Below, in pieces: positions 18,278-20,853 of a DNA stretch of 40,142 nt (its first letter is position 1; each line of letters opens with the position of its first letter). This DNA comes from Rhodospirillaceae bacterium (GTDB lineage: Bacteria; Pseudomonadota; Alphaproteobacteria; SMXQ01). The notes beneath the pieces were generated by a model. It did no database searches. It was given only the letters and a program-made list of their open reading frames with translations, and had not been told where the DNA came from. The DNA lies in contig CANJIM010000023.1 of the NCBI GenBank assembly GCA_947474495.1, forward strand, positions 1-40,142, written 5' to 3'. Both the position numbers and the translations under genes were made by a program.

Positions 18278-18332
18278 GACACGCTTGAGGCCGGGCACCG
18301 ACCGCAGAGTCGGGCTCGGCCGCGTTGCCAAG

Positions 18333-18356
18333 GAACGACGCGGGCCGGCGTCGTTC
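18333..18356 (+). promoter_or_regulatory. Perfect hairpin in the leader before Bug gene 4
   Basis: 9-bp perfect stem GAACGACGC/GCGTCGTTC with a GGGCCG loop, in the 209-base gap between the aldolase pair and the next Bug gene. No U tract follows (CTCATAAAA), so it is a weak terminator at best. It may be a message-stabilising hairpin or an attenuator. A second long-range pairing, CTGGGAG (18374-18380) with CTCCCAG (18425-18431), lies just downstream. Confidence 0.5.
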
Positions 18357-18486
18357 TCATAAAACAAAGGCCGGTCTGGGAGCGTGCCTATCGCCAACCG
18401 CGGTCATGACTGTTGCCCGCAGGCTCTCCCAGGCGTCGAGGATTTGCCCAACGACGGCCCTTAGCGACAGCCACTGGGAGAAACAT

Positions 18487-19521
18487 ATGCCTTCATTTCG
18501 CCTCGCCGTCCTTGCCGCGCCGCTTGCCATCGCGCTGGCGTCCGCCGCTTCGGCGCAATCGCCGGACCAGTTCTTCAAAGGCCGCTCGATCGACATGGTC
18601 ATCGGTGCCGACGCTGGCGGCGGCTATGACGTTTACGCCCGCGTGTTGACGCGCCATCTCGGCAACCATATTCCCGGCAATCCCAGCGTGGTGCCGAAGA
18701 ACATGCCGGGCGCCGGCAGCAATAAGGCGGCGCAGTTCATTTATGCGGTGGCGCCCAAAGACGGCACGGCGATCGGCGCGATCTTCGGCGGCGGCATCAC
18801 GCAACCGCTGCTCGGCGATGCCAAATCCGTTCAGCACGATCCGACGAAATTCATCTATCTCGGCAGCGCCAACCGCGAAATCTCGCTCTGCGTGGCACGC
18901 GCCGACGCGGTGAAATCGTTCGAGGAGGTCTTGCAGAAGCCGATCATTCTCGGCGCTTCGGCCGCCGGCGGCACCAGCCGCGATTTCCCGGCAGCGCTGT
19001 CCAACGTGCTCGGCGCCAAGTTCAGTATCGTCAGCGGCTATCCCGGCACCAAGGAGATCGGCCTCGCCGTCGAGCGCAACGAAGTGCAGGGCTTCTGCGG
19101 CTATTTCCTCTCCAGCTTGATGACGCAGAATCCCGGCTGGATGACCGATCCGAACATGCGGATTCTCGTGCAGGAGGTCAGCAAGGGCGATCCGGAGTTG
19201 ACCAAGCGCGGCGTGCCGGTGGCGGTCGATTTCGCCAAGACGCCGGAAGATCGCCAAGTGCTCGAACTGATCTTCGATCAGCTGGTGTTCGGCCGGCCCT
19301 ACGTGTTGCCGCCGGGCGTGCCGAGCGACCGTGTCGCGGCGTTGCGCAAGGCTTTCCTCGATGCGTTGAAGGATCCGGCCCTGCTGGAGGACGCCAAGAA
19401 GTCCCGCATCGACATCGATGCGGTGTCCGGCGAAGAGGTCCAGACGTTGGTGGCCAAAATGTTCGCCACGCCGGAGGCCATCGTGCAGCGCGCCCGCGAG
19501 GCGCAGATTCCGAAGAAATAG
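18487..19521 (+). CDS. Bug/TctC-family periplasmic solute-binding protein 4
   Basis: 344 residues with a clear signal peptide (AVLAAPLAIALASAASAQS). The receptor core follows: GADAGGGYDVYARVL, KNMPGAGSNKAAQFIY and VAPKDG. It differs from the 0.7-3.9 kb set in the segment GITQPLLGDAKSVQHDPTKF and forms a subgroup with the next gene. The ATG at 18487 has GGGAG 6 bases upstream; the longer frame to 18325 has no signal peptide at its start. Periplasmic carboxylate receptor with no membrane transporter nearby. Co-directional with the aldolase pair and perhaps delivering its substrate. Confidence 0.9.
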   Translation: MPSFRLAVLAAPLAIALASAASAQSPDQFFKGRSIDMVIGADAGGGYDVYARVLTRHLGNHIPGNPSVVPKNMPGAGSNKAAQFIYAVAPKDGTAIGAIFGGGITQPLLGDAKSVQHDPTKFIYLGSANREISLCVARADAVKSFEEVLQKPIILGASAAGGTSRDFPAALSNVLGAKFSIVSGYPGTKEIGLAVERNEVQGFCGYFLSSLMTQNPGWMTDPNMRILVQEVSKGDPELTKRGVPVAVDFAKTPEDRQVLELIFDQLVFGRPYVLPPGVPSDRVAALRKAFLDALKDPALLEDAKKSRIDIDAVSGEEVQTLVAKMFATPEAIVQRAREAQIPKK

Positions 19522-19565
19522 TTTTGCGAGCTGGGGAGTACCCGGCCGTCAACAGGGAGAGACCC

Positions 19566-20609
19566 ATGCAGACGAAGCGTAATTTCGGCATCGTGCTTGG
19601 CGCCGCGCTGCTTGCCGCCGCCGGTTCGGCGCAGGCGCAGGACGCGGCCCAATTCTACGCCGGCCGCACCCTGGACATGATGATCGGCGCCGATCCCGGC
19701 GGCGGCTTCGATATCTATGCCCGCTTGTTTTCCAAACATATGACCAATCATATCGCGGGCAAGCCGACGATCGTGGCGAAGAACTTGCCGGGCGCCGGTA
19801 GCAACAAGACGGCGCAGTTCATCTATGCTCAGGCGCCGAAAGACGGCAGCGTGATGGGGGCGGTCTTCTCGGGCGCCATCATCCAGCCGCTGCTCGGCGA
19901 TCCGAAGACGGTGCAGCATGATTCGACCAAGCTGATCTATCTCGGCAGCGCCAATAACGAGGTCGGCGTCACGGTGGTGCGGGCTGACGCGCCGGTGCAG
20001 AGCTTCAAGGAGCTGTTTTCCAAGGAGCTGATCTCGGCGGCGAGCGCCGCCGGTGGCTCGAGCCGCGATTTTCCCGCGGTGCTCAACAACGTGCTCGGCA
20101 CCAAGATCAGCCTGGTCACCGGATATCCCGGTACCAAGGAGATGAGTCTCGCCATCGAGCGCAATGAGGTGCAAGGCACCGGCGGCTATCTGTGGTCGAG
20201 CTTGAAGACGCAAAACCCCGATTGGCTGAACCCGGCGAAGATGAAGATCATCGTCCAGGAGGCCATCAAGGGGAATGCCGAGCTGACCAAGATGGGCGTG
20301 CCGCTGGCCATCGATGCCGCCAAGACCGATGAGGACCGCCAAGTGATGGAGCTGTTCTACGGCCAGCTCGTGTTCGGCCGGCCTTACATTCTGCCGCCGG
20401 GCACGCCGAGCGACCGGGTGAAGCTGCTGCGGACCGCCTTCATGGAGACGGCCAAAGACAAGGCCTTCTTGGAAGACGCCGCCCGGGCGCGGCTCGAGGT
20501 TGACCCGGTCTCCGGCGAAGAGGTCCAGGCCCTGGTGACCAAGATGTTCAGCGCGCCGGACAACATCGTCGCGCGCGCCAAGGAGGCGATGATCTACAAG
20601 AAACCCTAG
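19566..20609 (+). CDS. Bug/TctC-family periplasmic solute-binding protein 5
   Basis: 347 residues, a close paralog of the preceding gene, with a signal peptide (VLGAALLAAAGSAQAQD) and the core GADPGGGFDIYARLF, KNLPGAGSNKTAQFIY and QAPKDG. It also shares the QPLLGDPKTVQHDSTKL segment. ATG 19566 is preceded by GGGAGAG. The 44-base gap after gene 4 and shared direction suggest one message. Probably a tandem duplicate tuned to a related ligand. Ligand unknown. Confidence 0.9.
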   Translation: MQTKRNFGIVLGAALLAAAGSAQAQDAAQFYAGRTLDMMIGADPGGGFDIYARLFSKHMTNHIAGKPTIVAKNLPGAGSNKTAQFIYAQAPKDGSVMGAVFSGAIIQPLLGDPKTVQHDSTKLIYLGSANNEVGVTVVRADAPVQSFKELFSKELISAASAAGGSSRDFPAVLNNVLGTKISLVTGYPGTKEMSLAIERNEVQGTGGYLWSSLKTQNPDWLNPAKMKIIVQEAIKGNAELTKMGVPLAIDAAKTDEDRQVMELFYGQLVFGRPYILPPGTPSDRVKLLRTAFMETAKDKAFLEDAARARLEVDPVSGEEVQALVTKMFSAPDNIVARAKEAMIYKKP

Positions 20610-20638
20610 GCGGGTCTGAGCGGCGCGAAAAGCAGACC

Positions 20639-20668
20639 TTGTGAAAAGCCCACCCGCCCCCATATGCT
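20639..20668 (+). promoter_or_regulatory. Candidate sigma-70 promoter of the small transcript
   Basis: TTGTGA (20639-20644), an 18-base spacer and TATGCT (20663-20668). Transcription would start near 20675, about 13 bases before the extended Shine-Dalgarno. The match to consensus is moderate. Confidence 0.45.
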
Positions 20669-20687
20669 GAGGCGTGTTCAATCAGCG

Positions 20688-20700
20688 AAAGGAGGTGATC
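20688..20700 (+). promoter_or_regulatory. Extended 13-base Shine-Dalgarno
   Basis: AAAGGAGGTGATC is complementary over all 13 bases to the usual 16S rRNA 3' tail (GATCACCTCCTTT). Ordinary genes in this window use 4 to 6 bases. It stands 2 bases before the GTG of the small ORF, or 7 bases counted from the GGAGG core. Confidence 0.85.
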
Positions 20701-20702
20701 TC

Positions 20703-20774
20703 GTGTCTCATTGTGAATGGCTGAAGTCTGCCGAGGCTCGGATTGTCGCCGGTGCGGTGTTTGCTGTCGCCTAA
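20703..20774 (+). CDS. 23-residue small protein with exceptional ribosome-binding site
   Basis: A GTG-started ORF of 23 codons. It begins MSHCEWLKSAEARI and ends in a short hydrophobic AGAVFAVA, which suggests an amphipathic or membrane-touching peptide. It is preceded by the 13-base Shine-Dalgarno at 20688-20700. After the stop come inverted repeats (GCCTAA at 20769-20774 with TTAGGC at 20793-20798; alternatively GGCCT 20783-20787 with AGGCC 20795-20799), then a strong terminator. With its own promoter candidate it forms a transcript of about 180 bases. It could be a translated small protein or an RNA whose anti-16S sequence matters. I do not recognise a named family. Confidence 0.6.
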   Translation: MSHCEWLKSAEARIVAGAVFAVA

Positions 20775-20817
20775 CGACGCGAGGCCTCAGGCTTAGGCCA
20801 AGGCCAGACAACAATGG

Positions 20818-20853
20818 AAAGGCCGTCTCTCACGAGACGGCCTTTCTTTTTTT
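20818..20853. terminator. Strong rho-independent terminator
   Basis: Perfect 12-bp stem AAAGGCCGTCTC/GAGACGGCCTTT with a TCAC loop, followed on the plus strand by C and T7. It ends the small transcript and also blocks read-through into the convergent flavin reductase gene. The A-rich left side gives some function for minus-strand transcripts too. Confidence 0.9.

Follow-up and report, generated by a model that had tools for sequence, protein, structure and literature searches.

The DNA analyzed here (the window) is the 40,142-nt contig CANJIM010000023.1 of a Rhodospirillaceae bacterium (assembly GCA_947474495.1). By direct reading, positions 20638–20847 of the window contain a promoter-like pair of hexamers, a Shine-Dalgarno (SD) sequence, a GTG-started open reading frame (ORF), a folded 3′ part and a terminator, all on the forward strand (Table 1). 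Judging from these parts, the element appears to be a monocistronic transcript of roughly 175 nt with a predicted promoter and terminator of its own. The upstream neighbour is a Bug/TctC-like receptor gene on the same strand (its Pfam score is marginal), and the SD lies 77 nt past its stop codon. Bug/TctC-like genes are arranged in tandem directly upstream, at 18325–20609, with adjacent copies sharing ∼65% protein identity over the compared stretch; local gene amplification is the probable origin of this tandem. The downstream neighbour is a flavin reductase gene. Because it is convergent and not co-directional, the RNA has no adjacent target in cis on its downstream side.

Table 1. Features of the element in the window (all coordinates are window positions)
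Feature	Position	Strand	Basis and remarks
Promoter candidate	20638–20666	+	−35 CTTGTG at 20638–20643, 17-nt spacer, −10 CATATG at 20661–20666; direct reading
Predicted transcription start	about 20672–20675	+	From the promoter candidate
5′ leader TTCAATCAGC	20677–20686	+	Variant of the class-wide (T)CAACAAC motif directly 5′ of the SD
RF01867 (CC2171) match	20679–20844	+	Model positions 1–159 of 159
Extended SD GAAAGGAGGTGATC	20687–20700	+	Pairs with the 16S 3′ tail over 14 nt
GTG ORF, MSHCEWLKSAEARIVAGAVFAVA	20703–20774	+	23 codons plus stop; direct reading; length selected, sequence not
P1 5′ arm, CAUUGU	20709–20714	+	Codons 3–4; fold, Rfam consensus pairing, clan covariation
Internal folded body with nested hairpins	20718–20806	+	MFE and centroid agree; UGGCU at 20718–20722 pairs near 20802–20806
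P1 3′ arm, ACAAUG	20811–20816	+	Abuts terminator; fold, Rfam pairing, covariation; identical in sister genome
Intrinsic terminator	20816–20847	+	13–14 bp stem, UCAC loop, U tract; supported by the fold

A preliminary description of this DNA had proposed a self-contained small transcript, and its anatomy held. The 23-codon GTG frame was confirmed, the terminator stem is 13–14 bp where 12 bp had been given, and the structured 3′ part folds with a z score of −6.0 against shuffled sequences (20706–20847), or −2.3 once the terminator is removed. The sequence of the internal body is not conserved across the class. The promoter candidate was absent from the output of a sigma-70 scan, which used the E. 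coli consensus. In a clan-weighted profile of the family (clans are defined below), the −35 and −10 regions give weak, T-rich signals. The same profile contains the leader motif (T)CAACAAC at −24 to −17 from the start codon, a position not fixed by the search pattern.

The extended SD GAAAGGAGGTGATC forms 14 contiguous pairs with the alphaproteobacterial 16S tail (15 if a flanking U–G wobble is counted), one more than the 13 of the preliminary description. The 16S gene is missing from the source assembly; in related genomes, most intact 16S genes give AGAAAGGAGGTGATCCAGCC as the complement. The next-best anti-16S match before any ATG or GTG in the window is 10 nt. An exact 14-mer is expected by chance about 0.02 times in a 3-Mb genome, and the core 12-mer of the SD occurs once in the 2.99-Mb assembly. 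The GTG start follows GATC by 2 nt and the GGAGG core by 7 nt, which is normal spacing.

The element was compared with its counterpart at the syntenic locus of a congeneric sister genome (G001). There, the −35, −10, leader, SD and first codons are identical or nearly so, and CTTGTGAAAAG and CCCCCATATGCTG of the promoter region are kept. Between the Bug stop codon and the promoter the two genomes differ by substitutions and indels, and they have diverged past the terminator as well. The last part of the ORF has also drifted (VFAVA in the window, ELAIA in the sister genome), and the terminator stem has changed in compensatory fashion, from GTCTC/GAGAC to GCCTC/GAGGC. Because the block from promoter to ORF is kept, the flanks have diverged and the terminator is compensated, these differences favour selection on the RNA and disfavour the reading of the element as a 3′ UTR fragment or terminator of the Bug/TctC-like gene. 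That reading draws on the shared strand and short distance; across the class, however, the family is found away from Bug genes, and as a rule none occurs in the fetched flanks. With its own conserved promoter region and, as a rule, no Bug gene beside it across the class, the element is largely refuted as a Bug 3′ UTR, an origin to which we assign almost no probability. The promoter candidate and the self-contained transcript of the preliminary description are thereby supported.

A search of Rfam at the gathering threshold gave no match in the window. In E-value mode, the element aligned end to end with the covariance model of CC2171 (RF01867; positions 1–159 of 159, 65.6 bits, E = 1.1e-13), and the P1 closing helix and the terminator hairpin that follows it are paired in both the alignment and the fold. 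The leader, SD, GUGUCUCAUUGU start, P1 helix, terminator and bacterial class are all those of CC2171. The gathering cut-off is 75 bits, a score reached by neither the window copy nor the sister copy (71.0 bits), so the window copy should be considered a homologue below the automatic cut-off and not a listed member. Six named loci score above the cut-off. When 14 control genomes were searched with the model, Caulobacter alone matched. We regard homology of the window element to CC2171 as close to certain. CC2171 itself is a Caulobacter sRNA, connected with the screen for such RNAs by Landt et al. 2008 (cited in PMC4117421). PMC4117421 reports translation of two previously predicted ncRNAs of Caulobacter, which its excerpted text leaves unnamed. 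Rfam types the family as an sRNA gene, and the portion of its description displayed contains no ORF. Rfam 15 counts CC2171 among families whose structure was improved with R-scape, and a Mesorhizobium survey lists one CC2171 candidate.

Copies from Bradyrhizobium, Rhodobacteraceae, Sphingomonas and Mesorhizobium match CC2171 at 34–45 bits. Bradyrhizobium copies encode GTG-started peptides of 14 amino acids (43.6 bits) and Rhodobacteraceae copies encode peptides of 18 amino acids (43.2 bits), which we take to be the published peptide sizes for rreB and rreR, respectively. As reportedly described by Hahn et al. in 2017, rreB (Bradyrhizobiaceae) and rreR (Rhodobacter/Roseobacter) are small mRNAs with an extended SD. 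In the same work, rreB is said to have bound 30S subunits strongly while being translated weakly, and to have been stabilized when a stop codon took the place of the start codon. The window copy resembles these RNAs in its extended anti-16S SD, its GTG start and its very short ORF at canonical spacing within a small mRNA (23 codons). It differs in that its peptide, of 23 amino acids, is unrelated in sequence and its SD pairs over 14 contiguous nucleotides rather than 16–17, the definition of rreB/rreR presumably requiring complementarity to the 16S 3′ end over 16 nt or more. Because both peptide-size classes match CC2171 and agree with the rreB and rreR sizes, CC2171 and rreB/rreR look like one family under two names. 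The 2016 Bradyrhizobium literature examined does not give the peptide.

The core 12-mer of the SD is present in many alphaproteobacterial genomes. Outside 16S and protein genes it is followed two bases on, with few exceptions, by ATG, GTG or TTG and then TC; SD copies within protein genes or antisense to 16S were set apart by the start codon required at +2. A 20-base pattern was found in 78 of 387 genomes of the class, and a reversed control pattern in none. In a phylum-wide sample of Pseudomonadota, all matches were in Alphaproteobacteria and none was found in the other classes sampled. Named records cover Rhizobiales, Rhodobacterales, Sphingomonadales, Caulobacterales, Rhodospirillales and Acetobacteraceae. 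Most genomes have a single copy; one (G022, contig C1, positions 805113 and 2922049) has two, of which one is MSHC-type (L028). Two pattern matches lie in bins labelled as other phyla, L077 in a Gemmatimonadetes MAG and L183 in a Nitrospinota MAG, and may reflect contaminating alphaproteobacterial contigs or transfer.

In all, 158 copies were collected, 153 of them with a terminator hairpin. The copies were sorted into 55 clans that share less than 70% identity around the start of the ORF; common descent links the clans, which should not be considered fully independent. Note that the search pattern itself included SD, start codon and TC, which makes the perfect conservation of these parts in the profile circular. 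Copies detected by the covariance model alone are free of this constraint. Fourteen were fetched; one of these is apparently false, and in another the start is shifted. Most retain 14–16 of 17 SD bases, commonly as GGAGGTGGTCC, at unchanged spacing and with an open frame of 21–29 codons; changes are often A to G, which retains G–U pairing.

The ORF is 14–36 codons long in 54 of the 55 clans. A shuffle test was run on the 54 clans whose ORF is shorter than 50 codons (the 59-codon clan was left out): 54 of 54 were observed in this range, where 17 (about a third) were expected and the maximum in 300 shuffles was 24. The lone clan departing from the short-ORF rule (L145, L193 and L196, from Azospirillum sp. 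B21 and two further genomes) has ORFs of 56–59 codons, and that of L145 begins MSHGASPVVAALFGLAALLTAGIANAEC-like, resembling a signal peptide. The amino acid sequence behaves differently from the length. Values of pN/pS, which are biased upward by RNA constraint on synonymous sites, could be obtained for eight clans with sufficient sequences: seven gave 0.7–1.6, and the remaining small clan gave 3.6. The values well below 1 expected of purifying amino acid selection were thus not seen. Within clans, changes are spread about evenly over the three codon positions. Weak selection on the peptide may nevertheless act.

These data bear on the proposal that the element is a small-protein gene, with the 23-residue peptide as its product and a long SD that merely secures translation. 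A clear start, SD and stop and selection on length agree with it, as does the similarity of the peptides within a genus. The MSHCEW peptide, for which the preliminary description suggested a search in related genomes, is kept within the genus, but not beyond. Against the proposal, pN/pS is about 1 in most clans, the peptide has no Pfam match, and only the first residues are shared across the class, all of them within P1. Bradyrhizobium peptides have KRCHLAGIAR in common; however, the shared codons show no synonymous variation, so that this conservation may be at the nucleotide level. A gene for a functional peptide is therefore improbable. What survives of the proposal is an mRNA whose translation matters, since an ORF of fixed length is selected. 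Because length is held while the peptide drifts, the sequence comparison suggests that the working part is the RNA and its being translated, not the peptide. Many MSS-type copies (L008, L016, L072, L126, L163, L181, L185 and others) share a C-terminal EQP motif. Its codons (GTGGAGCAGCCTC-like) are able to base-pair with the SD and with the nucleotides that follow the SD, and they vary synonymously in one clan group; the repeat is read as anti-SD pairing, and peptide-level selection could also account for it.

Conservation of RNA structure, which the preliminary description had set beside codon conservation, is seen in a long-range helix (P1) that is absent from that description. P1 joins codons 2–7 to the 14 nt just ahead of the terminator, with a duplex energy over the 55 clans of −9.16 kcal/mol for a clan's own partner and −6.24 kcal/mol for swapped partners (z = −8.7, 0 of 10,000 permutations; a control segment gave z = −0.1). 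Some clans have no advantage over swapped partners. Codons 8–13 gave z = −3.6 in the same test. The SD gave no signal with the last 14 nt before the terminator (z = −0.6) and a weak one with the last 30 nt (z = −3.0). P1 is already part of the Rfam CC2171 consensus, and the swap test extends it to clans that Rfam scores weakly. In the window copy, P1 comprises no more than 6 bp, with a further 5 bp nearby.

Many copies also carry an internal anti-SD mimic, which shows enrichment across the family (mean z = −1.24 ± 0.14, with 18 clans below −1.64). None was detected in the window copy (z = +0.78), and the mimic therefore has no part in the explanation of that copy. The strongest internal SD-sequestering element seen is in L137, where a 12-bp mimic (GCGGATCACCTCCG) lies about 95 nt past the start codon, between stop codon and terminator.

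The preliminary description also offered a dual-function RNA and a ribosome-binding sponge as possible readings. Two further alternatives were weighed. In one, the GAAAGGAGGUGAUC tract, free in the leader, would titrate sRNAs with anti-SD (CCUCC-type) seeds. Copies that differ in their other parts keep an almost unchanged SD, and there is precedent in the same class for RNA pairing through such a seed: in Caulobacter, CrfA sponges four sRNAs, SisA–D, which have in common a 10-mer bearing an anti-SD signature (PMC12559287, excerpted text). CrfA and SisA–D are different RNAs, however, for which the excerpt describes no ORF or 16S-tail match, and the excerpt does not name CC2171. A sponge would also need neither tracking of the 16S tail (up to 17 nt) nor start-codon spacing nor an ORF of fixed length, and we consider it unlikely. 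In the other alternative, the RNA is a pure decoy that sequesters 30S subunits, with translation incidental. Near-complete complementarity to the 16S tail throughout the class is what a decoy would have, but it would make selection on ORF length and stop position unnecessary and would require very high abundance to matter; this too has a low probability.

Taken as a whole, the element is best explained as a ribosome-tethering RNA of the CC2171/rre type, an assignment we hold to be probable. From its sequence, the best reading is a structured, ribosome-gated RNA and not a gene for a conserved peptide. The gating mechanism itself is proposed tentatively, with confidence somewhat short of even. 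A 30S subunit would be held by the leader and SD through pairing with its entire 16S 3′ tail, and P1 (+6 to +11 from the start) would lie inside the mRNA channel of the initiating ribosome. Since P1 begins 6 nt into the ORF, within the channel, initiation would require P1 to melt, and ribosome binding and RNA folding would therefore compete: folded P1 would exclude the ribosome, and translation would open P1. A minimum of 14 codons would let the ribosome clear the SD, and because the stop codon is about 40 nt before the terminator, terminating ribosomes would leave the 3′ structure intact. The state of the RNA (closed, open or translated), and probably its stability, would then report or titrate ribosome activity. 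For the window copy, we infer 30S capture, switching and any downstream role on this basis.

The small RNA gene is not new in kind, given that CC2171 is already in Rfam and the rre small mRNAs are already published. A well-conserved alphaproteobacterial RNA has seemingly entered the literature under two descriptions, as a non-coding sRNA and as a small mRNA, and both labels fit poorly because the frame is kept open at a set length while the peptide drifts. The comparison also warns that a fixed-length ORF is not by itself evidence of a functional small protein. A broader proposal, which we find possible though doubtful, unites CC2171 and rreB/rreR in a single ancient RNA of the whole class, with selection on its ORF acting on the fact and length of translation and not on the product. 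It would serve as a free-standing ribosome sensor in which 30S loading on a complete anti-16S SD is set against a long-range helix (in many lineages also against an internal anti-SD mimic), setting its stability or its action on other RNAs. If the mechanism is true, the ribosome itself would be the gate of a stand-alone RNA.
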